Source of the DNA: a virus
Length of the DNA: 22,058 nt
Virus record (IMG/VR): IMGVR_UViG_3300013094_000309
Coordinates: 1-22,058 of that record
Reading direction: 5' to 3' (one strand)
Shown: positions 1 to 16,585 of the stretch, piece after piece
Layout of the letters: each line of letters begins with the position of its first letter
How positions within the stretch are numbered: position 1 is the stretch's first letter
Translations under genes and position numbers: made by a program
The notes under the pieces: generated by a model
Told to the model about the DNA's origin: nothing
The model's input: only the letters and a program-made list of their open reading frames with translations
Databases searched by the model: none

Positions 1-3000
1 AGATGCGCTATATGATGGCGTAGCTCTTAGGGTTGTTGGATAAGCCACATTAAAATAAATAGATTGTGTTGTCTGACAAGTTCCCGAACCTAATGGCTGG
101 CTAGCACCTGTGTATGCAACCATATAACGCTGACATAAAGCTAGTTCTTCCCCATACTGCCTATAATCATAAGAAGTAGCAACAGAGCCTTTTTCCAGTT
201 GAACTCCACTTACAACTAAAGTGTTTCCGTTTGATGGAGATATTGCAAACACAATCATTAAACCATTACCAACATTTGAACCAGCATTAAAGCTAAAACT
301 ATAAATAGTTGGAGTTGTTGTAGTAGAAAGTGTTCCTGTAGAAATCTGTGTAGCACTACCAAAAATACCGCTAGCACCAGAACTCCAAGTATCTTTTGTA
401 TTTGGGTAATATGCATACCATGTAACAGTTGAAGATGCACTAGAAGAAAGTTGCGCTTGAACTGTTACAGTTTGATTGATTAAATCATAAGAATTAAAAG
501 ATTCAATTCTTTGAGCAAGCCCCATACTAGCGGTGCTTGAAGCAGTTGATGTTAATTGTGCAGCATATTGATATGGCGCTGTACCTGCAACTCTTTGAAA
601 AGTTGCAGATACACTTGAACCAGTACCGTATCCAATCCATCTATCAAGACCATAGTTAGTACCGTTTCCAGTTCCAGTTATGCTGTAAGAACCACCATTA
701 TATTTTTGGTCAATTTGCATCAAACCATTAATTAATTTATTTTTAAAGCTAGATGATGTTCCACTATATCCTGAATAACCTGAGTATCCGCTAGTACCAG
801 TAATAGATTGACCAGAGTAGCCTGAATAGCCGGATGTTCCAGTAGCTCCAGTAGAACCATTTTGACCGCTATATCCGCTGTAACCAGAAGTTCCTGTTGC
901 ACCATTGCTACCATTTATACCTGAATAGCCTGAATATCCAGATGTACCTGTTGCACCTGTACTACCGTTTATACCTGAATAACCGCTAAATCCTGAATAG
1001 CCAGATGTACCTGTAGCGCCATTAGTGCCATTTATTCCAGAATATCCTGAATAGCCTGATGTGCCTGTTGCGCCTGTAGAACCATTCTGTCCACTATAGC
1101 CAGAGTAACCTGATGTACCTGTAGCGCCAGTTGATCCATTGATACCTGAGTAGCCAGAGTAACCGCTTGTTCCTGTAGCGCCATTTATACCTGAGTAGCC
1201 AGAATAACCAGAAGTTCCTGTAGCTCCAGTAGAACCATTCGTACCAGAATAGCCAGAATATCCGCTAGTTCCATTTGTACCATTTGTACCAGAGTATCCT
1301 GATTTTCCAGAATAACCTGATATGCCTGATCCACTATAACCAGAAATACCACTAAAACCTGAAATACCGCTAAAACCTGAATATCCTGAAGTTCCAGTAG
1401 CTCCAACTTGCCCTGAATAGCCTGATGTTCCAGAGTAGCCAGAATAACCTGATGTGCCAACATTTCCTGTAAGGCTAATTGTCCATGTATAGCTTGCAGC
1501 AGTACCGCTAAGATAGTCAACATTGACTACTAAAGTTGTTCCACTAAAAGAAGTGATTGCTCCTTCAGCATACAAACTTGGAGAAAGATTATTAATTACT
1601 CTTACACGATCACCTACAGTAAACGCAGTTTGTGATGCAGAAAGGTTGGTAGTCCAAGTATTAGAACCAAGAACAGGGGTAAGAGATGAACCAGAAGTTA
1701 AATTTGAATAACCAAGCCCACTAAACCCTGAAATGCCAGAATATCCAGATATGCCTGAATACCCAGAAATACCCGAGAATCCACTAAATCCTGAGATCCC
1801 TGAAAAACCACTATAGCCTGAAATTCCTGAAAAGCCACTATAGCCACTTGTGCCAGTAGAACCATTAATTCCTGAATAACCGCTATATCCAGATGTTCCT
1901 GAATAGCCACTAATACCCGAATAACCACTAAATCCAGAAATGCCAGAAAAACCGCTGTAACCAGAAGTTCCGTTAATTCCGCTGTAACCAGAAAAACCAG
2001 ATATACCAGAAAATCCTGAATAGCCGCTAATACCTGATCCACTATAGCCACTAAAGCCAGAGATTCCACTATAACCAGAAATACCACTAAATCCAGAATA
2101 GCCACTTATTCCTGAACCACTATAGCCTGAAATTCCTGAAAATCCTGAGTAGCCAGAAATACCAGAGAATCCGCTATAGCCACTAAAGCCAGAGATTCCA
2201 CTATATCCGCTAATACCAGAGAACCCACTATAGCCAGATGTGCCTATATTTCCTGTAAGACTAAATGCCCAAGAATTGGTTGACCATGTGCCACCAGAAA
2301 TGTAATCAACATTGACTACTAAAGTTGTTCCAGAAAATGATGTAATAGTACCTTCTACATATAAATCATAAGAATAAGTATTAATTGCCCTTACTCTCGC
2401 TCCAACAATGTATGCAGTTTGACTAGAAGATTGATTTGTTGTCCAAGTGTTAGACCCAATAGCTGGTGTAAATGAAGTGATTGAAGTTAAAGGATAGTAT
2501 CCTAATCCGCTAAATCCACTATAGCCTGAAATTCCTGAAAAGCCAGAAATTCCAGAAAAACCAGAGTAACCACTTATGCCAGAAAATCCGCTGTATCCAC
2601 TAATTCCTGAGTAGCCTGATATTCCTGAATATCCCGATATACCTGAAAAACCAGAATAACCAGAAATGCCACTAAAGCCAGAGTAACCAGAAATGCCAGA
2701 TCCAGAATAACCAGATTTACCACTATAACCAGATATTCCTGATCCTGAATATCCAGAATAGCCAGAAATGCCACTATAGCCACTAATACCACTATATCCA
2801 GAATAGCCTGATATTCCGCTATAGCCTGATTGGGTATACATTACTTGAGTTGCAGTAACAATAACACCGGGGGTTACTGGAACAGTTGGACTAGATTGCG
2901 CTCCAGTTGTTGAAATAGAAATAGTAGTTGAAGAAACTGCCCATGCAAGTTGCAAATAATCACCAGCATTAACAGTCAATACATAATTAACTGCTGCAAT

Positions 3001-5892
3001 TAACGCACCAGCACCGCCATGCGCTGTTCCCGGCACATTGTAAATAGAGTTGCTATCTGCAACATCTGAGCCATTTTTGCGTAACCAGACATCAACATTA
3101 TCGCCATTGGAATCTGAATTAGCAAATTGCAATGAATACTCAAGGTTATATGTACCAGCATTAGCAAAAGTTATTTGATTGCCAGAAACAATGCTTACAC
3201 CATTAGCTTCAAATTGACTGCCAATATTTACAACATAAGCAGTTGTAGTGTTAGAAGCAGTTTGATTAGTTATGTCATAGAAAGATCCATAAAAACCTTG
3301 AACACCGCCACCGCCATTTTGACCGCTAAAACCTGAATAGCCTGAATAGCCAGAAAAACCAGAAATGCCTGAATAACCAGAATAGCCACTATAACCAGAT
3401 GTTCCTACATTTCCTGCTAAAGTAATAGTCCATGTATAACTTGCTCCAGTACCACTTAAATAGTCAACATTGACTATTAAAGTAGTGCCAGTAAAAGAAG
3501 TTATATTTCCTTCAGCATATAAGCCTGTAGAAATGTTATTAATTACTCGAACTCTATCGCCTACTGCAAATGCGGTTTGAGAAGCAGAAAGATTAGTAGT
3601 CCAAGTATTAGACCCTAATACTGGTGTTAATGCAGTTCCAGAAGTTAATCCTGAATATCCAAGTCCACTAAATCCAGAAATTCCTGAAAAGCCGCTATAC
3701 CCTGAGATTCCTGAAAAACCAGAATATCCGCTTATGCCAGAATAACCGCTAATGCCTGAGAAGCCACTATAACCAGAAATGCCTGAACCAGAGTAGCCTG
3801 ATTTACCGCTATAGCCAGAAATTCCAGAACCAGAATATCCCGATATACCTGAGTAACCAGAGTAGCCAGAAATTCCAGAGAATCCACTAATGCCGCTATA
3901 ACCGCTATAACCACTATAACCACTAATGCCAGAGAATCCACTAATGCCAGAGAATCCACTAATGCCAGAAAAACCGCTATAACCTGAGTAGCCTGATATT
4001 CCTGAAAAACCACTAATTCCATTAGCAATTGCAAAAATAATTGCTTGATTGTTAGAGAAGTTTGTAGATCCAGTTCCAGAGGAAGATACTAAAGAAACAG
4101 GGATAGTGTAATAACCACCAGCATTGCTTGGTGTTCCAGTAATAATCCAAGTTTGTTGATTTGCACTATTAGTTTGGTCTTGAATAACAATTTCTTCAGT
4201 TTTAGCCAGTAGAGCTAAAAATACAGTTATGTCTACGCCATTGGCAGCAGTTGTGCTGACATTTAATTGGGTTGCATTAACTTGAGTTGCATTATTCCAA
4301 AGCAAATAATCTGCACCGGGATTTCCTGTAGTAGCTGTTGTATTTGCTTTATAAAAATAATAGCTACTAGATACTCCACTTGCGCCTGAATAACCAGAAA
4401 TACCAGAGAATCCGCTGTAACCAGAAATACCAGAAAAGCCACTAATTCCTGAGTAACCTGATATTCCGCTATAGCCGCTGATTCCACTAAAGCCAGAATA
4501 CCCGCTAATTCCTGAGAATCCGCTATAACCTGATATGCCTGATCCTGAATAACCGCTTATTCCAGAGAATCCACTAATTCCGCTAAATCCAGAATAGCCA
4601 CTTATTCCTGAAAAGCCGCTATAACCGCTAATACCAGAAAATCCACTATAGCCACTAACACCAGAAAATCCAGAATAACCAGAAATGCCTGAGCCAGAAT
4701 AGCCAGATTTACCGCTGTAGCCAGATATACCTGAATATCCTGATACGCCAGATCCTGAATAGCCAGAAATTCCGCTATAGCCACTTATGCCAGAATAACC
4801 AGAAATTCCAGAGTAACCTGAAATCCCACTAAATCCAGAGTAACCACTAATTCCTGAGTAACCTGATATTCCTGAAAATCCTGAAAAACCAGATATACCT
4901 GAAAAACCGCTGTATCCGCTTATGCCAGAAAAACCTGAGTAACCAGAAACACCAGATCCGCTATAGCCGCTATACCCGCTAATACCAGAGTAACCGCTAA
5001 GACCTACTGCTCCTGAAAAACCACTATACCCGCTAATCCCTGAGTAACCGCTAATACCAGAATAACCAGAAATACCACTATAGCCTGAATAGCCTGAAGT
5101 TCCAGCAGCAGAGAACTGAGTAAAGTTAATAGGGCTTACATTGATTGTTCCAGTTTCAGGAACTAAAGCTACCCAACCAGTTCCAATGTTATCTATTCCA
5201 TAAAGAATAAAAGTAAAAGCACCGGGAACTTCTGCCCAAGTGTTCATATCTGGTGATCTAGTCCAATCTCCAGCAGAAGCAATATAGATACCATTTTGGG
5301 CGGCATTAGTTTGATTCTTAACTAGAACACGATCACCAGCTAAAGTAGTGTATCCATCAATAGTTTGAAGCCCTGAAAGGGTAATGTTTCCACCACCTTG
5401 TTCAATAGTAGTGGTAGCACATTGACATTCAGCTTTTGGTGTAAGACCTACTACTAAATTATCAACATATTCTTTATTTACTATATCTGTTGGATTTACA
5501 GGAACAGAATCTACCTGCCCTGTAGTAGCTTCCATATTAATAAATTTTGCAGAATATAGACCTTCTTCTAAGCCTTCTATCTGAACAAAAGCATCTGTAG
5601 AGCCAGCAGTATCTAAGTTGACTGCAAAATCACCACGATTCCATGCCTGAGCAATTGTTCCCTCTTGTCCCCTAACAACAGTAAAAGCATCGCCAGAAAC
5701 AGAAGTTACATAAACAATTTCATTTATTAAACTGTTAGTAGCATTAACTAAAGTTAAAGCAAACTGTTGATTGCTTGCTGGTTGCGGAAAATATTGCCCT
5801 GTTCCACTAGCTACATAAATAGTAGTGTCAGTAGAAGATACTGGCAATGACAGAGTAGATTGCGCTTGATTAGCAAATAAGAATATTGTCAT
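1..5892 (-). CDS. Giant collagen-like tail fibre, C-terminus beyond left edge
   Basis: One uninterrupted frame runs from an ATG at 5892 to base 1 with no stop, giving at least 1,964 residues. It is preceded by an AGGG ribosome site. Residues 1-100 match the start of the neighbouring 396-residue fibre and probably attach to the baseplate. Residues 137-263 hold a common phage fibre module (NKEYVDNLV, then DRVLVKNQT..NGIY). From 264 to 1716, Gly-every-third-residue tracts of Ser-Gly-Tyr/Ile/Phe alternate with globular inserts: one at 506-625, three copies of an 80-residue beta domain, and a C1q/TNF-like jelly-roll at 862-1019. From about 1729 the end resembles a widespread virion domain: NKLINGLMQID, then DRW, then VQLEKGSVATSYDYRQYGEE and LALCQRY. 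It probably binds the host surface. The frame is certain; the trimeric-fibre role is inferred from these modules and its place after the baseplate genes. Confidence 0.9.
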   Translation of the reverse strand, partial: MTIFLFANQAQSTLSLPVSSTDTTIYVASGTGQYFPQPASNQQFALTLVNATNSLINEIVYVTSVSGDAFTVVRGQEGTIAQAWNRGDFAVNLDTAGSTDAFVQIEGLEEGLYSAKFINMEATTGQVDSVPVNPTDIVNKEYVDNLVVGLTPKAECQCATTTIEQGGGNITLSGLQTIDGYTTLAGDRVLVKNQTNAAQNGIYIASAGDWTRSPDMNTWAEVPGAFTFILYGIDNIGTGWVALVPETGTINVSPINFTQFSAAGTSGYSGYSGISGYSGISGYSGISGYSGFSGAVGLSGYSGISGYSGYSGSGVSGYSGFSGISGYSGFSGISGFSGFSGISGYSGISGYSGFSGISGYSGISGYSGISGYSGISGYSGSGVSGYSGISGYSGKSGYSGSGISGYSGFSGVSGYSGFSGISGYSGFSGISGYSGFSGISGFSGISGYSGSGISGYSGFSGISGYSGFSGISGYSGISGYSGISGFSGISGYSGFSGISGYSGASGVSSSYYFYKANTTATTGNPGADYLLWNNATQVNATQLNVSTTAANGVDITVFLALLAKTEEIVIQDQTNSANQQTWIITGTPSNAGGYYTIPVSLVSSSGTGSTNFSNNQAIIFAIANGISGFSGISGYSGYSGFSGISGFSGISGFSGISGYSGYSGYSGISGFSGISGYSGYSGISGYSGSGISGYSGKSGYSGSGISGYSGFSGISGYSGISGYSGFSGISGYSGFSGISGFSGLGYSGLTSGTALTPVLGSNTWTTNLSASQTAFAVGDRVRVINNISTGLYAEGNITSFTGTTLIVNVDYLSGTGASYTWTITLAGNVGTSGYSGYSGYSGISGFSGYSGYSGFSGQNGGGGVQGFYGSFYDITNQTASNTTTAYVVNIGSQFEANGVSIVSGNQITFANAGTYNLEYSLQFANSDSNGDNVDVWLRKNGSDVADSNSIYNVPGTAHGGAGALIAAVNYVLTVNAGDYLQLAWAVSSTTISISTTGAQSSPTVPVTPGVIVTATQVMYTQSGYSGISGYSGYSGISGYSGISGYSGYSGSGISGYSGKSGYSGSGISGYSGFSGISGYSGFSGISGYSGISGYSGISGYSGFSGISGYSGFSGISGFSGISGYSGFSGLGYYPLTSITSFTPAIGSNTWTTNQSSSQTAYIVGARVRAINTYSYDLYVEGTITSFSGTTLVVNVDYISGGTWSTNSWAFSLTGNIGTSGYSGFSGISGYSGISGFSGYSGFSGISGYSGFSGISGYSGSGISGYSGFSGISGYSGISGFSGYSGSGISGYSGFSGISGFSGYSGINGTSGYSGFSGISGFSGYSGISGYSGTSGYSGYSGINGSTGTSGYSGFSGISGYSGFSGISGFSGFSGISGYSGISGYSGISGFSGLGYSNLTSGSSLTPVLGSNTWTTNLSASQTAFTVGDRVRVINNLSPSLYAEGAITSFSGTTLVVNVDYLSGTAASYTWTISLTGNVGTSGYSGYSGTSGYSGQVGATGTSGYSGFSGISGFSGISGYSGSGISGYSGKSGYSGTNGTNGTSGYSGYSGTNGSTGATGTSGYSGYSGINGATGTSGYSGYSGINGSTGATGTSGYSGYSGQNGSTGATGTSGYSGYSGINGTNGATGTSGYSGFSGYSGINGSTGATGTSGYSGYSGINGSNGATGTSGYSGYSGQNGSTGATGTSGYSGYSGQSITGTSGYSGYSGYSGTSSSFKNKLINGLMQIDQKYNGGSYSITGTGNGTNYGLDRWIGYGTGSSVSATFQRVAGTAPYQYAAQLTSTASSTASMGLAQRIESFNSYDLINQTVTVQAQLSSSASSTVTWYAYYPNTKDTWSSGASGIFGSATQISTGTLSTTTTPTIYSFSFNAGSNVGNGLMIVFAISPSNGNTLVVSGVQLEKGSVATSYDYRQYGEELALCQRYMVAYTGASQPLGSGTCQTTQSIYFNVAYPTTLRATPSYSAS
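748..1464 (-). repeat. Collagen-like tract 6 with Thr/Asn-rich triplets
   Basis: About 237 residues (1478-1716 of the giant fibre). It differs from the other tracts: units of GTSGYSGYSG alternate with GSTGATG, GINGSTG and GTNG triplets, a composition closer to classical bacterial and phage collagen-like sequences. It leads directly into the C-terminal domain. Confidence 0.88.
1465..1703 (-). repeat. Fibre insert domain, copy C of three
   Basis: The third copy of the 80-residue domain, closest to copy A. Signatures are GSNTWTTNLSASQTAFTVGD, RVRVINN, LYAEGAITSFSGTTLVVNVD, YLSGT and WTISLTGNVGTSGYSG. Confidence 0.85.
1704..2244 (-). repeat. Ser-Gly-(Tyr/Ile/Phe) triplet tract 5
   Basis: About 180 residues (1217-1396 of the giant fibre) of nearly pure SGY/SGI/SGF triplets with a few Gly-Ser-Gly breaks and one GTSG/GINGSTG-type variation. 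Codons are scrambled synonymously. Confidence 0.9.
2237..2495 (-). repeat. Fibre insert domain, copy B of three
   Basis: The most diverged copy of the 80-residue domain. Signatures are IGSNTWTTN, SQTAYIVGARVRAIN, LYVEGTITSFSGTTLVVNVD, YISGGTWS and FSLTGNIGTSGYSG. Spacing between the conserved blocks matches copies A and C apart from a few extra residues near the end, so this is domain duplication rather than chance. Confidence 0.85.
2502..2835 (-). repeat. Ser-Gly-(Tyr/Ile/Phe) triplet tract 4
   Basis: About 110 residues (1020-1130 of the giant fibre) of the triplet repeat. It carries another lysine-containing block with flanking Gly-Ser-Gly breaks at roughly 2694-2760 and ends in SGFSGLGYY. 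Confidence 0.9.
2836..3303 (-). other. C1q/TNF-like jelly-roll domain inside the giant fibre
   Basis: Residues about 862-1019 read as a beta sandwich. Signatures in order are GVSIVSGNQITFANAGTYNL, EYSLQFAN, GDNVDVWLRKNGSDV, VLTVNAGDYLQLAW and a closing ATQVM strand. The (I)xFxxAGxYxxxxSxQ and WLxxNG elements are typical of the C1q/TNF-like domains that follow collagen-like stalks in phage and spore-surface proteins. Such domains form trimers. It is unusual here in being internal rather than C-terminal. Confidence 0.65.
3304..3405 (-). repeat. Ser-Gly-(Tyr/Ile/Phe) triplet tract 3 (short)
   Basis: A short tract of about 33 residues (830-862 of the giant fibre), GTSGYSGYSGYSG onward, ending in FSGQNGGGGV. 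It links copy A of the 80-residue domain to the C1q/TNF-like domain. Confidence 0.85.
3418..3654 (-). repeat. Fibre insert domain, copy A of three
   Basis: A beta-rich domain of about 80 residues within the giant fibre (around 748-828). It has the signature GSNTWTTN, then SQTAFAVGDRVRVINN, then LYAEGNITSF, GTTLIVNVDYLSG and WTITLAGNVGTSGYSG. Copies B and C lie at about 2237-2495 and 1465-1703. Function is unknown; it may be a spacer or trimerisation knob between triplet tracts. Confidence 0.85.
3655..4019 (-). repeat. Ser-Gly-(Tyr/Ile/Phe) triplet tract 2
   Basis: About 120 residues (626-747 of the giant fibre) of the same triplets. It includes a higher-order block at roughly 3779-3835 with a lysine triplet (SGKSGYSG) between two Gly-Ser-Gly phase breaks. 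The tract ends with GLGYSGL before the next globular domain. Confidence 0.9.
4375..5103 (-). repeat. Ser-Gly-(Tyr/Ile/Phe) triplet tract 1
   Basis: About 240 residues (264-505 of the giant fibre) of SGY, SGI and SGF triplets, with rare variants such as SGAVGLSG. There is no proline. Some Gly-Ser-Gly steps break the three-residue phase. Synonymous codons are mixed freely (AGT, AGC, TCA, TCT; GGA, GGT, GGC), so the DNA is a degenerate 9-base-period repeat rather than an exact one. Confidence 0.92.
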
Positions 5893-5913
5893 GGTAAACC
5901 CTAAGCAATATTC

Positions 5914-6186
5914 TTAAAGAATACTATATGTGTCGTTTGCAGCGCCAGTAAATTTAACAGTTGTAGCTGGATAAGTTAAAGCATACACAATTTGACCAGT
6001 TTCATTCAAAGTTGGAGTTACTGCTGTGTAAAAAGTCGCTCCACTATCAAAAGATAACTGGATAGCTCTACTTCCATTTGAAGAATTTAATACTAAAGTA
6101 GCTGGATAAGCTAAATTAGGTAAAGCTACAGTTGCAGTAGCTCCAGTAAGAGTGCCTGTGATAGGGCTTCCATAGTTATAAGTCAT
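5914..6186 (-). CDS. Small protein between the two fibre genes, unknown role
   Basis: A 90-residue protein starting at an ATG with a good AAGGAAA ribosome site. It sits 9 bases after the 396-residue fibre gene and 21 bases before the giant fibre gene. It is rich in Thr, Ala, Tyr and Asn, with short alternating hydrophobic segments (ATLVLNSS, AIQLSF, QIVYALTY) that suggest an all-beta fold. I see no signal peptide, membrane segment or known motif. I do not recognise the family. Position suggests a virion component such as a fibre collar, adaptor or chaperone, but nothing in the sequence proves this. Confidence 0.75.
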   Translation of the reverse strand: MTYNYGSPITGTLTGATATVALPNLAYPATLVLNSSNGSRAIQLSFDSGATFYTAVTPTLNETGQIVYALTYPATTVKFTGAANDTYSIL

Positions 6187-6195
6187 AAATTTTCC

Positions 6196-7386
6196 TTAGT
6201 AAAGTTCTGCCCAAATAGCAAGAGAAGCTGTTCCGCCACCACCAATAATGCCAAAACCATAAGTTTTGCCGGGAGGAACTATTGCTGAAATACTGCTTCC
6301 AACAGTAGCGTTTGTGTAGCTATTAAAGTTAGCTTCATAACATTCGCCTACAGGTTGTCCATCAACAAAAAAAGCCACAAAAGCTCCATTTGTATATACA
6401 CAAGTATTTACCATTATTGGGTAAGTGTTGGTGTTTGTATAAGTGGTGTCTAATGCTCTAGAAGTCAAAACATTGTGCCAAGATTCACCACCAAGACCTA
6501 AACCTTTTGCAACACTATTTACAAACTCAGTAGTAGCAATTTGAGTGTTATTTGTGCCTGCTGATGGAGTAGGCGCTGTTGGTGTCCCTGTAAATTCTGG
6601 GCTATTAATTAACGCATAATTTAATAAACTGTTATATACATAATCAAGTGTTGCTAGTTGACTAGGAACAGCAGGAAAAGATGGCGCTGGGATTCCATAA
6701 GTTGGTGCTGTAGGAACTCCAGTAAAAGCTGGGCTATTTAACAAAGCATAAGCCGCTAAAGAAATAATAGGGTTATCCAAAACCCAAGCATTGTAAGCAA
6801 CGCTATAAGTTAGGCTTAAAGGATACCCAGCACCGGGAATATAGCCAGCAGTTAAAGCAGTATTGTTTCCAACAACAATAGGTAATGCGCCCGTAACTGT
6901 AGAACCAAGAGTTAAGTTAAAAGTGGCTGCACCTGTATTGGCATAAGCAGAAACAATAGTAACTGACATGCCATCTGTTAATGCTGTTAATGTAGATGGA
7001 AGGGTTGCGGTTAGTGCATTGGCTGTTCCAGCGGCATCAGCATAAGTGTAATAAGCACTTTGTAATTGAGCAGATTGAACTAGGTTTGCCATTACCGCAG
7101 CAGTATCATAGTTTCCTACAATATCGCTTAGTAAAAAAGGAGTGCCAGTTGTGCCTTCTTGCGCCCTAACAACAGTTAGCGTATCGCCTGATCTAGCTGT
7201 GCAATTACAAATTTCATAGGTAGAAGAAGAAGCAGCGCTAACTAAAGTAACTTTAAACTGTTGCCCAGTTGTAGGACTTGGAAACAAAGAACCAGTACCG
7301 GGAGCTACCGTAATGGTTGTTTGAGTAGCAGTAATAGGGGCTGCTAGGGTAGTTTTAGCATTGTTTGCATAAAGCTGAATAGTCAT
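6196..7386 (-). CDS. Tail fibre protein
   Basis: A 396-residue protein with an AGGGA ribosome site before its ATG. Residues 1-105 (MTIQLYANN through DTAAVMANLVQ) are homologous, nearly without gaps, to the start of the giant fibre and probably form the attachment domain. The middle carries two copies of a classic fibre repeat, YALLNSPAFTGVPTAPT and YALINSPEFTGTPTAPT, the second followed by QIATTEFV as in lambda, P2 and Mu-type side fibres. The C-terminal 100 residues (WHNVLTSRALDTTYTNTNTY, then PIMVN and GGGGTASLAIWAEL) resemble the terminal domain of many phage fibres and probably form the tip. It likely makes a second, short receptor-binding fibre alongside the giant one. Confidence 0.85.
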   Translation of the reverse strand: MTIQLYANNAKTTLAAPITATQTTITVAPGTGSLFPSPTTGQQFKVTLVSAASSSTYEICNCTARSGDTLTVVRAQEGTTGTPFLLSDIVGNYDTAAVMANLVQSAQLQSAYYTYADAAGTANALTATLPSTLTALTDGMSVTIVSAYANTGAATFNLTLGSTVTGALPIVVGNNTALTAGYIPGAGYPLSLTYSVAYNAWVLDNPIISLAAYALLNSPAFTGVPTAPTYGIPAPSFPAVPSQLATLDYVYNSLLNYALINSPEFTGTPTAPTPSAGTNNTQIATTEFVNSVAKGLGLGGESWHNVLTSRALDTTYTNTNTYPIMVNTCVYTNGAFVAFFVDGQPVGECYEANFNSYTNATVGSSISAIVPPGKTYGFGIIGGGGTASLAIWAELY

Positions 7387-7422
7387 AAAAATCCCTATTA
7401 AAGATAATGTAATTGTAGCTAA

Positions 7423-8034
7423 TCAATAAGTAATTGTGTAGTTATATTGAAAAGGCAAATTTAATGTTCTAGACTGAATTGCGGCTTGGAAAAAAGGCGA
7501 AATTGTCAAATTGGGTATATCAATTGTTACTGAATTTGCACTTTCATAAGTAACGCTAATATTGTAAATATCAGCTATATCAGGAATATCCGTACCATTT
7601 ACACCATAAATAAAACGAGCAACTCGTCTTTTTAGCCATTGTGTGGTGTATTGAAACCCATCACCCTTATAGAAATTCCAAGTCAAAATTCTTTTAAAAA
7701 CATCGTCTGTTACTACATACGATCCTGATGGAGCATTTTCTATATCTTGGCTATAGGCAGTTGTATCATAAGGAACTGTATCGTATACGCCTGCTGTAGT
7801 AAAGCTGGTGGGAGAACCTAAACTTGGGCGTAAAACTCCATAGATTCCATAAACTGACCAATCTAATAGTGGATATGACTGAATAGTATAGATTGGTAAA
7901 TTTAAGTTATTTGTAGCATTTAGCCTATTTTGTGATTCAGTATTGTATGCAGTAAAAAAAGCCTGTAAATCATCGCTATACGGATCTTGCGTATATTGCT
8001 GATAAAGATAAGCTGGTAGAACTTGGGTCTGCAT
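7423..8034 (-). CDS. Baseplate wedge protein in the gpI position
   Basis: A 203-residue protein whose ATG lies one base after the stop of the gpJ-like gene, with an AGGG site inside the end of that gene. It is aromatic-rich with Tyr-rich loops in the first half. Near residues 112-145 it has a helical, basic segment (FKRILTWNFYKGDGFQYTTQ, then WLKRRVARFIYG) followed by beta strands (IYNISVTY, SVTIDIP). Its place between gpJ and the fibres is that of P2 gpI, which links the baseplate wedge to the fibres. The family assignment rests mostly on position; the length suits this role. Confidence 0.6.
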   Translation of the reverse strand: MQTQVLPAYLYQQYTQDPYSDDLQAFFTAYNTESQNRLNATNNLNLPIYTIQSYPLLDWSVYGIYGVLRPSLGSPTSFTTAGVYDTVPYDTTAYSQDIENAPSGSYVVTDDVFKRILTWNFYKGDGFQYTTQWLKRRVARFIYGVNGTDIPDIADIYNISVTYESANSVTIDIPNLTISPFFQAAIQSRTLNLPFQYNYTITY

Positions 8035-8035
8035 A

Positions 8036-9433
8036 TTAGCCCTGAGTAATAGTAATCAAGCTAGAGTTAGTAGAAAAATAGCTTTCAGGATCACCATAAA
8101 TAAGCAAAGTTCCTGTAACTGGTGAGGTTGCTATCCCATTAATATCCACAACATAATTAATTTTGGATATTTGAGATACAGGCAGAATTGGAGCTACTGC
8201 TAGCTGAAATGCTTCTTGTAGCTCAAAAGTGTTAATTGGCTGTCCTACTGCAATGCTATTGATATAAGTAGCAATAGCTGGCGTGGCTAATTGCGCTATG
8301 GCAGTTGGAGATACTAAATTGGTAGAAATAGTATTCCAAGTAATAGCAATTTGAACAGTTTGAGCAGGGGGATTTACAAAAACAATGCTATAGGTATCTG
8401 GGTAATCATTAACAGATACTGTGATATTTCGTAAATTTGGCGTTACTACACCGCCACTTACATAAGTCAAACTGGTTGCATTTAAAGGAATACTAAAAGT
8501 TTTTTCACTTAATACTGTAGCTGTAAAAGTGCCATTAAATCCAGATGGGCTTGCTCCAGCAATAGTTACTGTTTGACCTGAAGAATAGCCATGATTAAGG
8601 TTGGTAGATACTACTGCTGGGTTAGTAGAAGTTATTCCTGTTACTTGTAAGGTAGAGCCTACTAAATTAGAAATATCTGGTACAGAGTTAAAAATAGCAT
8701 TAGCTACTTGGTATGGATCTCCACCACCACAAATAATTTCCCATTGATTGGTAGCCACATTTCTGACAGAAATAAGCCTTGGTTGCACTCCTGACACTTG
8801 AGAAAGCTGTGCTTTAATAAAAGTTGGTACACCTTGAGCAGTCACCATTCCAGCTTGCATTACTTGAGCTTGATATGAAGCAATAGTTTGATCTGTTAAC
8901 CCCGGCAATCCAGCAGAAGGATTTGTACAAGTAAGGGTATACCCTGAAGGTACAGAAGTAATAATTTGTGTAACTGTTCCTGCTGGAATAGCCCAAGATC
9001 CTGAAACTGTAGCTAAACAATACAGTGCAGGACTTTGCCCAGAAGTGCTAATAATTCCGCCATCTTGAACTGTGTACTGATAAGTTCCATCAGATACAGT
9101 AAATCCAATAGGAATAACAAACCCAGCAAGACCGCTAAAAATAACATAAACAGAAGTGTTAGAACCTTGACCTTGCTCAACGCCATAAACTTGCCCCAAT
9201 TGATAAAGTATTGAAGGATTGGCTGTTGCAGGGCTTATAGAATTAACTAAATCTACAAAAGCTTGATCTTGAACTACAACAGCACCAGCGGCTGTTGAAG
9301 CCATATCTTCCACTAAAGATCCCGGTAAGTCTGCTGTTAAACCGGGTGATAAAGCTGTAGCCGCTGCAATTTCAGCATTTAACAGATCTGTTGGAGATGC
9401 TGGTATTGCTCCAGCCGTTGTAATTGTCGCCAT
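8036..9433 (-). CDS. Baseplate protein J-like (wedge), with inserted beta module
   Basis: A 465-residue protein starting in a TAATG overlap with the gp25-like gene. The N-terminus (PGSLVEDMASTAAGAVVVQD, then LYQLGQVYGV) is the helical part typical of the P2 gpJ / T4 gp6-like baseplate family. Strands follow (GFVIPIGFTVSDGTYQYTVQ, and IPAGTVTQI). The section ending in PINTFELQEAF and VSQISKINYVV matches the family's C-terminal part. Residues about 262-331 are an inserted beta module with HGYSSGQTVTIAGASPSGFN and GTFTATV, also found in the sheath of this phage. The protein forms the ring of wedges that opens when the tail contracts. Confident on order plus sequence pattern. Confidence 0.85.
   Translation of the reverse strand: MATITTAGAIPASPTDLLNAEIAAATALSPGLTADLPGSLVEDMASTAAGAVVVQDQAFVDLVNSISPATANPSILYQLGQVYGVEQGQGSNTSVYVIFSGLAGFVIPIGFTVSDGTYQYTVQDGGIISTSGQSPALYCLATVSGSWAIPAGTVTQIITSVPSGYTLTCTNPSAGLPGLTDQTIASYQAQVMQAGMVTAQGVPTFIKAQLSQVSGVQPRLISVRNVATNQWEIICGGGDPYQVANAIFNSVPDISNLVGSTLQVTGITSTNPAVVSTNLNHGYSSGQTVTIAGASPSGFNGTFTATVLSEKTFSIPLNATSLTYVSGGVVTPNLRNITVSVNDYPDTYSIVFVNPPAQTVQIAITWNTISTNLVSPTAIAQLATPAIATYINSIAVGQPINTFELQEAFQLAVAPILPVSQISKINYVVDINGIATSPVTGTLLIYGDPESYFSTNSSLITITQG
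8441..8650 (-). other. Inserted HG..SGQ..NGTF beta module in the J-like protein
   Basis: About 70 residues, with signature NHGYSSGQTVTIAGASPSGF followed by NGTFTATV and a closing YVSGGVV strand. It interrupts the normal J domain order. Modules of this pattern (related to the FCCH domain named from ubiquitin-activating enzymes) occur scattered in phage structural proteins. The sheath carries a related one at 16187-16417. Confidence 0.7.
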
Positions 9434-9756
9434 TAGCTTGCCACCACTGTAGAAATAGTTGTTCCGTTCTGGAATACTGCGCTTATATTATAAGTTGGGT
9501 CAGGCGTATTTTGCTGTTTAATAATGGTCAAACTAGCAAAATGTGGAGCATATTGTGTTTGAGTTCTATTGATTGCAATATCAGGCGGAATTTGTGTTGC
9601 CACAGAGTTTTGTGCTGGAATGCCATAATTTGCATAAAAAGGGCTTTCTCCTTGATTTAGCCTTAAAGTTTGTGCAAGGGTAGCCAGCCAAACATAGCTG
9701 GTTTCTGTTACTTCTGTCCATTGCCCCGTTTGAGGGTCTACGCCATAAGTTCTCAT
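9433..9756 (-). CDS. Baseplate wedge protein, gp25/gpW-like
   Basis: A 107-residue protein, the usual length for the T4 gp25 / P2 gpW family. Its key segment WLATLAQTLRLNQGESPFYA matches the conserved pattern of a hydrophobic helix followed by L-x-L-x-x-GES-x-F-x-x-x-Y-GI, here completed by NYGIP. It sits directly between the spike and J-like genes, as in many contractile injection systems, and shares a TAATG overlap with the J-like gene, implying translational coupling. It joins the hub to the wedges. Confidence 0.85.
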   Translation of the reverse strand: MRTYGVDPQTGQWTEVTETSYVWLATLAQTLRLNQGESPFYANYGIPAQNSVATQIPPDIAINRTQTQYAPHFASLTIIKQQNTPDPTYNISAVFQNGTTISTVVAS

Positions 9757-9758
9757 AA

Positions 9759-10508
9759 TTAGTCTGGTGAAGTAGTTGTAATAGTTGAACTTCCGCCTTG
9801 TACATTATTAACATTATGTACATGATTTGCCAAGCTTTTTCCTTCAGCAATGACATCGTTTGTAACATTAAGAGGTCCAATAAAGGTTGAGTTAGTGCCG
9901 TGTGTGCTAGTTCCTTGAGTAATTGGACCATTAAGCTGAATTACTCCATTTAAAGCAATTGTGTTGGCAGTAATTGATACTTCTGTACCAGACACGGAAA
10001 TATTGGTACTACCAATTATTACAGTTACACCTTCAGGCGTAAGTGTGATGGTGCAGTTATTATTTGTATCCCTAAGAACTACTCCATTAGGAGCATTAAT
10101 ATTGACAGCATTGGGATCAACTGGATCTGATATATTCCAATTAATATTTCCCAATGGGACATAAAATAAAGCACTTAAATTAAATGGCTTTCCAAGTGGA
10201 GCAAGCGAATCCTGTATGCCCAATCCAGTAACACCGCCAAGCCTTGCATCTGCTGACATACAAACACCATAATCCCCAACTTGTACTGGTAATCTTACAT
10301 ATTTACTTTCTGCTATTGGACATTCAACTTCAGGAAAAGTAATTTTTCCACTTGTGTTTACTTGAAAAGCAACAGTTACTATTGATCCATTAACTTTTTT
10401 TACAACACAAGGTAATTGCCACCCTGTAATTTCTTGATTTTGATCAAGTTTAGTTTGGATAAGATTGGAAAGGGATACCGCAAAGGGCGTTTTTTGTTCT
10501 GCACTCAT
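9759..10508 (-). CDS. Tail spike / puncturing protein, gpV-like with HxH tip
   Basis: A 249-residue protein starting in a 4-base ATGA overlap with the hub gene. Residues 25-115 look like an OB-fold domain (WQLPCVVKKVNGSIVTVAF through VGDYGVCMSADARLGG). Residues 140-225 have alternating beta-helix strands (GVVLRDTNN, CTITLTPEGVTVIIG, VSITANTIALNG). The C-terminus has LANHVHNV with His229 and His231, the HxH motif that in P2 gpV-type spikes from three chains coordinates one iron ion at the membrane-piercing tip. It would sit under the hub and be driven through the outer membrane, which suggests a Gram-negative host. Confidence 0.87.
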   Translation of the reverse strand: MSAEQKTPFAVSLSNLIQTKLDQNQEITGWQLPCVVKKVNGSIVTVAFQVNTSGKITFPEVECPIAESKYVRLPVQVGDYGVCMSADARLGGVTGLGIQDSLAPLGKPFNLSALFYVPLGNINWNISDPVDPNAVNINAPNGVVLRDTNNNCTITLTPEGVTVIIGSTNISVSGTEVSITANTIALNGVIQLNGPITQGTSTHGTNSTFIGPLNVTNDVIAEGKSLANHVHNVNNVQGGSSTITTTSPD

Positions 10509-11524
10509 AGCGTTTGATGTATAGGAGTATTGGGAATTATGGCTTCAATTATGGTTACCCAAGAGTTTCCATCGCCATTTCTACTGTTTCCAACATGATG
10601 TAGTTTTGTAATATAAAAAACACCATTAAAAGATATTTTATTTCTATATTGCGATTGGTTGTTTACTATGTTGGATACAGGAATTCCAGATTCAAAAGAA
10701 ATGTAATCAGCTACATTTAAATCGCCACGCATGACTACTTTTGCTGAAATGGTATTAATTCCTAACCAAGTTAAATTTCCAATAACATCAGTAAAAGCTA
10801 TTTTTTTTGTTATTGAAGGTGTAATTGTTGAATCAGTTAAAACAAATCCTGAATTGGTAGAAACAATCAGTGCACCAGTATAGGTAGGGCTAGAAATAAT
10901 TTGTTTACTAATGCTATTTAAAACTTGTGAAAAACTAAACAAGTTGTAATGCTGTGCTGGAGCATTTTCTGTATAAATTAATTTTGAGCTAAAAGACCCT
11001 GTAATTTTTGCATTTGGATAAGCATTTTGAAGTGCCGTAATGGTTGCGGAAGTTAAATCCTGACCTTTATTGCAGTTAAAAGTAATGTTATTGGTTGCAT
11101 TTTGATCCACCCCAACAGGAGCAAGAACCATATCTAAAGAAACTTGATTTCCTTGCCAATTTGAAAATGCTTGAATAATGCCACCATTAAGAATTACACC
11201 TTTTTGGTTTTGATTAGCATAGGGTAATCCCTTAGACATTCCCACTTCAACTGTTATTTGTGGCAAATTAATTCTTGACCCGTCAGAAGCAATTTCTGGA
11301 TTAATGTTAGCTTTTTGTTGCAATGCTTTCAAATCCACGCCCATCAATCTTAAATATCCATTAGATGAATAGCTTGAAAAAGAAGTTTGATAAATGTCTA
11401 AATCTAGTTGTAATGCTGAATAATTGTCTTTTCCGTTTGTTTGCGAGCTAAAACTAAATGGCACAAAAGTCCCTTGACCTTGTGCGCTTGCTGGCGGAGA
11501 AATGGTGATGTTGTAATATCTCAC
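10505..11524 (-). CDS. Baseplate hub protein
   Basis: A 339-residue protein starting at GTG, with its GTGA overlapping the stop of the plug gene. Features fit hub proteins of the T4 gp27 / P2 gpD type: N-terminal beta strands, a central segment QKGVILNGGIIQAFSNWQGN, a middle domain FSFSQVLNSISKQI, then VVMRGDLNVADYISF, and a final YITKLHHVGNSR with SWVTIIEAI. The GDLNVGD-like and HxGNSR elements are typical of hubs in small myoviruses. It caps the tube and holds the trimeric spike encoded by the next gene. Confidence 0.75.
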   Translation of the reverse strand: MRYYNITISPPASAQGQGTFVPFSFSSQTNGKDNYSALQLDLDIYQTSFSSYSSNGYLRLMGVDLKALQQKANINPEIASDGSRINLPQITVEVGMSKGLPYANQNQKGVILNGGIIQAFSNWQGNQVSLDMVLAPVGVDQNATNNITFNCNKGQDLTSATITALQNAYPNAKITGSFSSKLIYTENAPAQHYNLFSFSQVLNSISKQIISSPTYTGALIVSTNSGFVLTDSTITPSITKKIAFTDVIGNLTWLGINTISAKVVMRGDLNVADYISFESGIPVSNIVNNQSQYRNKISFNGVFYITKLHHVGNSRNGDGNSWVTIIEAIIPNTPIHQTL

Positions 11525-15274: not shown

Positions 15275-16585
15275 TTAAACTGGAATGTTAGATGCAGTTA
15301 AGTAGATAGTAATGGAACTGAATCCACGCAATGGAACAAATGTCAGGCTTAAACCGTTATAAGTTCCAGTTGAGTAATCTCCGGGGTGTTGCGCTACATA
15401 AGTAGTAAACGGAACAGCCGCTACAGTTGCTGGAGATAGAATCAATCCAAACGAAATACCATTATTAACTGTTGCTTGGGCTACTTTTTGCAAAGTATTA
15501 ATACCAGCTTGGTTATAGTACAGGGGATTTGTAGGCAAATTAGAACCATTAATGATTGCTGCTGATAATGCTTGCGCCACATTAATAGATAACCAATCTA
15601 CACAATACCAGTAATTAAATGGATTTAAATCCATAAAAGTACCGCCCATAATTAGCGTATTTGAAATACCACCTTGTGCGCCTGTACCAACCCAGTTAAC
15701 ACCAGCAGCCAACAAAGTTGTTTGTTGAGCATTGGTTAAAACATAAGGAGTTACAGCATAAACATAGGTATATTCAAATGGATGAGCTAAATTACTTACA
15801 CTTGGGTTATAGGCTAAAGATGCCCAGAAAATAGCGGCAGCGCTAAACTCTGTAGTTGGAGCAGAAGGGCTTGGCAATGTTACAAGAGCAGATTTAATTC
15901 CAGCCCAGCCAGAATAAGTTGCTAATGTAGAAGATACATAGAAATATACTTGTGCAGTAGTTCCTGTGTACATTTTTGCCATTGTTTGAGCGCCTGCAAC
16001 ATCCCATGCTTTAGGCAATAGGTAGCTATAAAACTTAATAGTTGGGTTAGCAATATAGGTTTCTAAAGCGGTAATACCGTTAGTAACAGTATCAACACCC
16101 AATTCCAATACATAGACTGGAACAGTAGAACCTTGAGCAAAGAATGTAGTAGCCATTGCTACTAATTCAGAAACATCTTCAACAGTAAAGAAAGCTGAAG
16201 TTGTTACCGCAGTACCGGGATTGCTTACAACAGAATAAGTCAGAGTATTTGTGCCAGTAGAAGTAATGGCAAAAGTACCATTATATCCGTTAGTAGTGCT
16301 TCCGCTAACAGTAACGCCTGCAATAATACCTTGAATAGTATCCCCAGAAGGAACTCCGTGAGCAGTTGAAGTAGTTACAGTTACAGTTCCGCCTGTCCAA
16401 GTTGCCGAAGCAATAGCACTTGAACTTCTAAGGATAGAAGTTAAATCTGAAAGCTGGGTCAACAGTTGAGTTGATCCAGAGCTTAAAGTTGTTCCCCCTT
16501 GAGATACAAATGCGCCAGTTTGTTGTAGCTGACTTGGCGCACTTGCCACCTGTTGGGTGACAACTACATTTACAATATTTGGCAT
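15275..16585 (-). CDS. Contractile tail sheath protein
   Basis: A 436-residue protein with an AGGGGG site before its ATG. It is far shorter than T4 gp18, but typical of compact sheaths of the DUF3383-like kind. Diagnostic stretches are FWASLAYNPSVSNLAHPFEY, LTNAQQTTLLAAGVNWVGTG, NTLIMGGTFMDLNPFNYWYC and VDWLSINVAQALSAAIING. The last of these is the conserved helix-strand region of sheath C-terminal domains. Residues about 57-133 are an inserted beta module (HGVPSGDTIQGI, then GYNGTFAITSTG) that probably decorates the sheath surface. Hexamers surround the tube and contract on infection. Its presence classes the phage as a myovirus. Confidence 0.85.
   Translation of the reverse strand: MPNIVNVVVTQQVASAPSQLQQTGAFVSQGGTTLSSGSTQLLTQLSDLTSILRSSSAIASATWTGGTVTVTTSTAHGVPSGDTIQGIIAGVTVSGSTTNGYNGTFAITSTGTNTLTYSVVSNPGTAVTTSAFFTVEDVSELVAMATTFFAQGSTVPVYVLELGVDTVTNGITALETYIANPTIKFYSYLLPKAWDVAGAQTMAKMYTGTTAQVYFYVSSTLATYSGWAGIKSALVTLPSPSAPTTEFSAAAIFWASLAYNPSVSNLAHPFEYTYVYAVTPYVLTNAQQTTLLAAGVNWVGTGAQGGISNTLIMGGTFMDLNPFNYWYCVDWLSINVAQALSAAIINGSNLPTNPLYYNQAGINTLQKVAQATVNNGISFGLILSPATVAAVPFTTYVAQHPGDYSTGTYNGLSLTFVPLRGFSSITIYLTASNIPV
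16187..16417 (-). other. Inserted HG..SGD..NGTF beta module in the sheath
   Basis: About 77 residues between the N-terminal tube-binding arm and the sheath core. Signatures are WTGGTVTVTTSTAHGVPSGD, then GYNGTFAITSTG, LTYSVVS and SAFFTVED. It is the same type of module as in the J-like baseplate protein (8441-8650). Inserting a whole module into an assembling subunit suggests a surface-exposed loop. Confidence 0.65.

Follow-up and report, generated by a model that had tools for sequence, protein, structure and literature searches.

Collagen-like fibres and glycosylated stalks

Collagen stability is usually attributed to proline. Jelly rolls of the C1q/TNF type form homotrimers, several of which cap collagen-like stalks, and the serine-rich repeat adhesins of streptococci combine a repetitive Ser-rich stalk with neighbouring glycosyltransferases that modify it.

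Collagen-like fibres of phages are already known. For instance, EPclA, from prophages of E. coli O157:H7, has been proven to be a triple helix that melts at 42 °C (PMC3368898). The EPclPs carry Pro at 48% of their X positions and charged residues at both X and Y, and are devoid of Phe, Trp and Tyr (PMC3368898). In bacterial collagens Thr is favoured at the Y position and some of these proteins are glycosylated, as is BclA (PMC8968730). In Riftia cuticle collagen, glycosylated Thr, and not hydroxyproline, is reported to dominate the stabilizing positions (Mann 1996, cited in PMC6953826).

The DNA analysed here (the window) is a complete IMG/VR record of 22,058 bases from a freshwater phage and carries the gene of a giant fibre with long Gly-X-Y tracts. 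Like streptococcal adhesins, this fibre and its relatives possess a Ser-rich repeat stalk adjoining glycosyltransferases; however, those adhesins have no Gly-X-Y phase, are anchored to the cell wall and are associated with different enzymes. Like EPclA, the window fibre is a structural protein of a phage that combines a Gly-X-Y stalk with trimer domains, here predicted ones, but its tracts contain 0% Pro, with Tyr, Ile or Phe at 77% of the X positions and Ser at Y, and while recombinant EPclA is unglycosylated, the SG[YIF] fibres travel with glycosyltransferases. As in BclA and other collagen-like glycoproteins of the Bacillus exosporium, a collagen-like stalk adjoins a C1q/TNF-type trimer head, here a predicted one. 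In the window fibre, however, the head lies within the chain and has a tract on either side, the triplets are of the SG[YIF] type and the protein is a tail fibre of a phage. The resemblance to the Riftia collagen lies in the proposed principle that a residue with a hydroxyl group at Y carries a sugar which stabilizes the helix; the Riftia collagen is an animal protein, whereas here the residue would be Ser, in tracts without proline, and the putative sugar would be added by phage enzymes.

The new elements are the grammar of aliphatic residues at X and the linkage of the tracts to a glycosyltransferase/methyltransferase cassette. Neither these two features nor a proline-free aromatic class of collagen was found in the open-licence literature searched, and a text search for SGYSG-type motifs gave no phage paper among the matches listed. 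A large class of environmental phages appears to make giant fibres of the collagen type with no proline and to have genes for sugar and methyl transfer next to the fibre gene.

The fibre gene and its position in the tail operon

The left quarter of the window had been predicted to hold a single frame without stop, and positions 1-5892 of the minus strand are indeed translated into 1,964 residues without interruption, the frame running off the contig. Its extension to the left was achieved through contig L010, from the same phage, which is 100% identical to the window across 13,035 bases and supplies the missing stop, completing a protein of 2,031 residues. In another contig, L009, the fibre frame is the same apart from 3 substitutions and triplet indels that preserve it, so it is no assembly accident. 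Chance or an assembly artefact are also ruled out by the identity of L010, the near-identity of L009 and the existence of more than 100 relatives. A simple DNA repeat can be discarded as well: Ser codons come from the TCN as well as the AGY block and all four Gly codons are in use, so the tracts are not a recent repeat of the DNA.

The fibre genes of L009 and the window differ in 9 codons, besides the in-frame indels, one of which is a duplication of 25 triplets, while the 10 kb that could be compared between L009 and window positions 1-10920 are just 94% identical. Because so few codons differ in spite of this divergence, the fibre gene looks, from the sequences compared, as if it had been swapped between phages as a block.

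All the structural genes of the window are located on the minus strand, in the order capsid (PHROG 264), sheath (PHROG 205), baseplate J (PF04865), a first fibre gene and the tract fibre gene. The sheath gene (15275-16585) indicates a contractile tail; the baseplate J-like protein (8036-9433) also belongs to PHROG 6. The first fibre gene (6196-7386) carries the same N-terminal adaptor as the tract fibre and no tract. Capsid proteins with 48-53% identity to that of the window are present in 14 phage records, one of them Pantoea phage PdC23 (Certevirus C23). PdC23 harbours two tail-fibre genes in the corresponding position, behind baseplate J and DUF2612, and the second one (gp24) starts with a relative of the N-terminus of the window fibre. 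This synteny, the shared adaptor and the presence of relatives of the C-terminal tip in other phage tail fibres identify the tract protein, on sequence grounds, as the distal tail fibre of a myovirus resembling Certevirus. The original prediction of a giant fibre is borne out.

Judged by eye, the baseplate J and sheath proteins may each contain a small insert of similar sequence (..HG..SG..V..I.G....YNGTF..T....); the one Pfam match bearing on it is a weak one to E1_FCCH in baseplate J.

Domain organization of the fibre

The fibre (1-5892, minus strand, as are all coordinates in this section) begins with an adaptor called N1 (residues 1-110; 5563-5892), which is 47% identical over 110 residues to the start of the protein encoded by 6196-7386, matches PHROG tail-fibre families and is presumably responsible for virion attachment. 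It is followed by domain N2 (residues 128-262; 5107-5511). In relatives N2 precedes either SG[YIF] tracts (13) or other fibre sequence without Gly-X-Y (72); the SG[YIF] tract is thus one interchangeable type of shaft.

Tract 1, a proline-free Gly-X-Y region (residues 263-506; 4375-5106), is separated from tract 2 (residues 625-743; 3664-4020) by a domain called INS (residues 507-624; 4021-4374). A repeat domain recognized from its sequence, R1 (residues 744-828; 3409-3663), leads to the short tract 3 (residues 829-863; 3304-3408), and the C1q/TNF/BclA-type domain (residues 864-1021; 2830-3303) separates the latter from tract 4 (residues 1022-1129; 2506-2829). Two further copies of this repeat domain, R2 (residues 1130-1213; 2254-2505) and R3 (residues 1393-1476; 1465-1716), also recognized from their sequences, surround tract 5 (residues 1214-1392; 1717-2253). 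Tract 6 (residues 1477-1711; 760-1464) combines SGYSGYSG with GAT, GST, GIN and GQN triplets that are interspersed without loss of register. The C-terminal tip starts at residue 1712 (1-759), continues for 67 further residues in L010, matches the tail fibres of PHROG 4492 (E=4.8e-35) and is presumably the receptor-binding part of the molecule.

The domain formed by residues 864-1021 was assigned by AF2 and Foldseek. From an alignment of 17 sequences, AF2 predicted a jelly-roll fold with a pLDDT of 94.1, whose best PDB matches by Foldseek are ExsFA, BclA, BxpB, F-BclA, ectodysplasin (EDA-A1) and C1ql1 (E 3.5e-7). Pfam BclA_C gives weak matches in 8 of the 19 members of this domain (best E 9e-7), the members listed scoring 16-20 bits, under the curated cut-off of 38 bits. 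On the basis of the predicted fold, the domain would be expected to form a homotrimer. Sequence searches of solved structures with this insert, with INS and with the tip gave no significant match.

With regard to INS, 52 of its flanks could be tested in relatives, and they consist of an SG[YIF] tract in 48 cases and of a mixed SG tract in 4. Wherever its flanks could be tested, INS thus borders on SG-type tracts, and it is a candidate for a tract-specific trimer knot.

Composition of the tracts

It had been predicted that about 900 residues carry Gly at every third position, and the count gives 903 residues, that is, 301 triplets distributed in 15 runs, with unbroken Gly-X-Y stretches of up to 58 triplets. 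The X position, which follows Gly, is occupied by Tyr (104), Ile (76), Phe (51), Thr (22), Ser (17) and Ala (11), and the Y position, which precedes the next Gly, by Ser in 248 of 286 cases. The description of the tracts as SG(Y/I/F) triplets stands with respect to the Ser before Gly and to the share of Tyr, Ile and Phe at X given above; however, the tracts are not pure, since G[YIF]S accounts for 223 of the 301 triplets. Eleven of the 12 short phase breaks of the window fibre are the one-residue break GYSG-S-G[IV]SG, which is the commonest interruption in the relatives too.

The lack of proline, which had also been anticipated, is complete: 0 in the 903 residues of the tracts versus 29 in the 1,061 residues outside them (2.7%). 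At the rate of the remaining protein, the probability of finding no Pro in 903 residues is 1.4e-11; the absence is therefore beyond what composition would give by chance. Only 2 charged residues are present at X or Y in the 301 triplets, so that, as had been supposed for proline, the usual stabilizers of collagen are missing. Pfam Collagen (PF01391) matches the fibre in 11 stretches with E=3.4e-112.

Selection and residue order at the X position

The pair formed by L009 and the window has too few changes (6 silent and 3 replacing) for codon counts, and 15 alignable pairs of relatives, more distant (79-95% DNA identity) and with partly overlapping sets of sequences, were used instead. In these pairs the 1,754 Gly codons accumulated 1 replacing versus 528 silent changes, the codons of the Y position 28 versus 441, and those of X 203 versus 247. 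Replacements at X are mostly between Phe and Tyr (88) and between Ile and Val (15). Exchanges between Phe and Ile number 18, although they require an equally simple one-step T/A change, and the X position can thus be said, at the level of codon comparison, to conserve the class of the residue.

The search that had been suggested for other proteins with long (SG[YIF])n tracts yielded more than 100 relatives. The order at X was counted in 96 virus groups that share no exact 45-mer and comprise 8,768 triplets. In this set, a triplet with an aliphatic residue adjoins another one 55 times, versus 796 expected; Ile-Ile neighbours at X were observed 28 times versus 621 expected, although the search pattern behind most of the loci permits Ile-Ile. 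The deficit of aliphatic neighbours is present in all 61 testable groups. It does not reflect a general avoidance of repeats, because Tyr-Tyr neighbours are common. Ile recurs after 2 triplets in 722 and after 3 triplets in 515 of 1,413 spacings. One guess is that the order reflects how neighbouring X side chains pack from one chain to the next; this alternation is a sequence code that every structural model must explain.

Among genome contigs, most matches to the search pattern are simple repeats of GFS or GLS whose reading frame is doubtful. Two contigs assigned to genomes of Nitrosotalea and Omnitrophota (L208 and L255) carry long SG[YIF] tracts, L208 together with a C1q-like domain; they may be wrongly binned phage contigs.

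A glycosyltransferase/methyltransferase cassette downstream of the fibre

In L010, the second gene past the fibre stop, about 290 nt downstream, is the start of a GT2 glycosyltransferase; in the phage of the window, this gene lies just outside the contig end. Full-length relatives of the L010 protein are fusions of GT2 (PF00535, E=1.8e-15) and a SAM-methyltransferase (matches to methyltransferase families). Other variants of the cassette contain a separate methyltransferase (MT), a GT2 and a short GT9-like gene, the latter assigned by weak homology of a short protein. Two loci encode larger proteins, L134:3050-6844 with four GT2 modules and L104:3593-5521 with two, each as one chain together with a methyltransferase; these multi-GT2 proteins possibly build short oligosaccharides.

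The cassette was called by homology to four cassette proteins, on the same strand and at most 6 kb downstream, in loci with at least 2.5 kb of downstream sequence. With these limits it follows the tract fibre in 40 of the 52 loci that could be tested, in 24 of the 40 within 150 nt, and no cassette appeared within 6 kb in the other 12 loci with room for it. In loci with the N2 adaptor and without tract the cassette is present in 0 of 74; in the search with this adaptor, 6 of 80 loci have a tract. Reverse scans, which started from the enzymes alone, kept the nearest relatives and considered a locus testable if its upstream sequence reached 2.5 kb, gave a similar picture. In both directions related contigs are counted as independent samples, so that p values would be no more than indicative. 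Relatives of the GT2 of the cultured phage P19250A have an SG-type tract upstream in 72 of 80 loci and in 65 of the 65 testable ones, GT9-like relatives (76 loci) in 56 of 61 testable, and relatives of the GT-MT fusion (80 loci) in 43 of 49 testable, plus one with the tract downstream only. The genomic linkage between tract fibre and glycosyltransferase is thus present in both directions.

Tract composition does not differ between loci with and without the cassette. Tyr was ruled out as general acceptor of the sugar by locus L131, where Tyr occupies 1% of the X positions, Ser occupies 87% of the Y positions and a cassette gene abuts the fibre stop.

A structural model and its alternatives

The reading that we consider rather probable is a trimeric collagen-like tail fibre in which the Ser residues at Y are O-glycosylated by the downstream cassette, the sugar acting as stabilizer. 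Three chains would be attached to the virion by the N-terminal adaptor, and globular trimer domains would keep them in register, namely the C1q/BclA-type insert, to which the fold prediction applies, and the putative trimer domains INS and R1-R3. Between them, the Gly-X-Y tracts would form collagen-type triple-helical rods with Ser at Y and with aromatic and aliphatic residues at X in strict order, an aliphatic followed by an aromatic one; the conserved GYSG-S-G[IV]SG breaks would act as hinges and the fibre would end in a receptor-binding tip. A collagen-type helix of three chains is favoured because Gly is nearly immutable, because ordinary phage-collagen triplets occur in the same register and because a C1q/BclA-type domain lies inside the fibre. 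Host-guest peptides place Tyr and Phe at X and Ser at Y among the poorer formers of triple helices, and we are not aware of a comparable natural tract, devoid of proline, for which a triple helix has been demonstrated. Since the cassette travels with the tract fibres, O-glycosylation of Ser would account for the missing proline: the phage cassette located just downstream of the fibre most likely modifies the Ser at Y, with the genomic linkage pointing to the fibre as its substrate, and a sugar, possibly methylated, would take over the stabilizing role of hydroxyproline. A more specific version, a self-contained phage glyco-collagen whose proline-free triple helix is stabilized by sugars on Ser at Y, added by a dedicated GT2/methyltransferase/GT9-like cassette, together with the aromatic-aliphatic order at X, is put forward tentatively, at somewhat less than an even chance.

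The cassette could instead modify the host surface, for instance excluding other phages, and travel within a host-range module together with a fibre that is still a collagen-like triple helix. Phage glycosyltransferases are often given this role, a view quoted in PMC10202952, and the host-recognition islands of pelagimyophages are rich in such enzymes (PMC7029224). However, the cassette is linked to the SG[YIF] tract and not to the adaptor, as the 0 of 74 adaptor loci without tract and the 65 of 65 testable loci found through GT2 illustrate, and its genes frequently start right at the fibre stop or overlap it, which makes this explanation unlikely.

The other alternatives concern the fold itself. 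For the original prediction the shape of the fibre was an open question between a polyglycine-II bundle, a beta-solenoid and a FUS-like chain, three possibilities that are less supported than the trimeric collagen-type helix. Another polyproline-II assembly, such as a polyglycine-II-type bundle, or a different trimeric fold with Gly at every third residue would suit both the Gly period and the lack of proline, and the gp38 adhesin of Salmonella phage S16 reportedly uses a polyglycine-II bundle. However, with as many as 58 triplets in one unbroken run there are no turns for an intramolecular bundle, and the tracts share their register with ordinary phage-collagen triplets and are flanked by a predicted C1q-type trimer domain; such an assembly is quite improbable. 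To this can be added, as weak evidence, that the AF2 model of one tract, run as a monomer with a single sequence, shows no bundle; it has no fold at all (pLDDT 27.5) and is uninformative for a trimer. The low-complexity motif of FUS is [G/S]Y[G/S], which SGYSG fits by composition, and the tracts are rich in aromatic residues, as flexible, sticky chains that phase-separate or form amyloid and act as adhesives would be. A sticky chain would not need the strict Gly phase that selection maintains (1 versus 528), nor breaks that are nearly always of one residue, nor a strict order at X, and we regard this reading as very improbable. Scarcely any credit is given to a beta-solenoid, such as a left-handed beta-helix, that would bury Ile in its interior: Ile is mostly found every 6 or 9 residues, as such a fold would have it, but the irregular alternation between 2 and 3 triplets breaks a fixed coil, and the AF2 monomer predicts no strand.

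If these fibres are glycosylated triple helices, they would explain how a collagen without proline remains stable, represent a new collagen-type material and indicate that tail fibres can require a dedicated post-translational decoration. Stabilization of the phage collagen would then depend on a chemistry in which proline and hydroxyproline play no part.

The cultured phage P19250A

Among 50,697 phage records, the only one with INS and a strong match to the cassette is the freshwater Methylophilaceae phage P19250A (KX815270), located by means of INS and the cassette enzymes; a tblastn search of cultured phages with the tract sequence gave no match, probably due to low-complexity masking. Its gene 0023 (L410:21390-24995) encodes a fibre of 1,201 residues with 281 triplets, in which X is occupied by Tyr (76), Ile (44) and Phe (40), Y by Ser in 225 triplets, and Pro is found four times. 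Adjoining aliphatics are absent from its tracts, which run in register into ordinary phage-collagen triplets (GPQGES). The fibre gene is followed by genes for a methyltransferase, a GT2 and a GT9-like protein, with gaps of 14, -8 and -4 nt.

P19250A thus shares with the window fibre the kind of triplet, INS, the aliphatic rule and the cassette directly downstream. However, it belongs to another lineage, in which a host specificity protein J is annotated, and has more Ala and Glu at X besides its four Pro residues. As a cultured phage with the complete set, it makes the glyco-collagen idea testable. Gene 0023 is annotated as a tail length tape-measure protein, yet its product is a collagen-like fibre, and another gene of the same phage (0015) is also annotated as tape measure.
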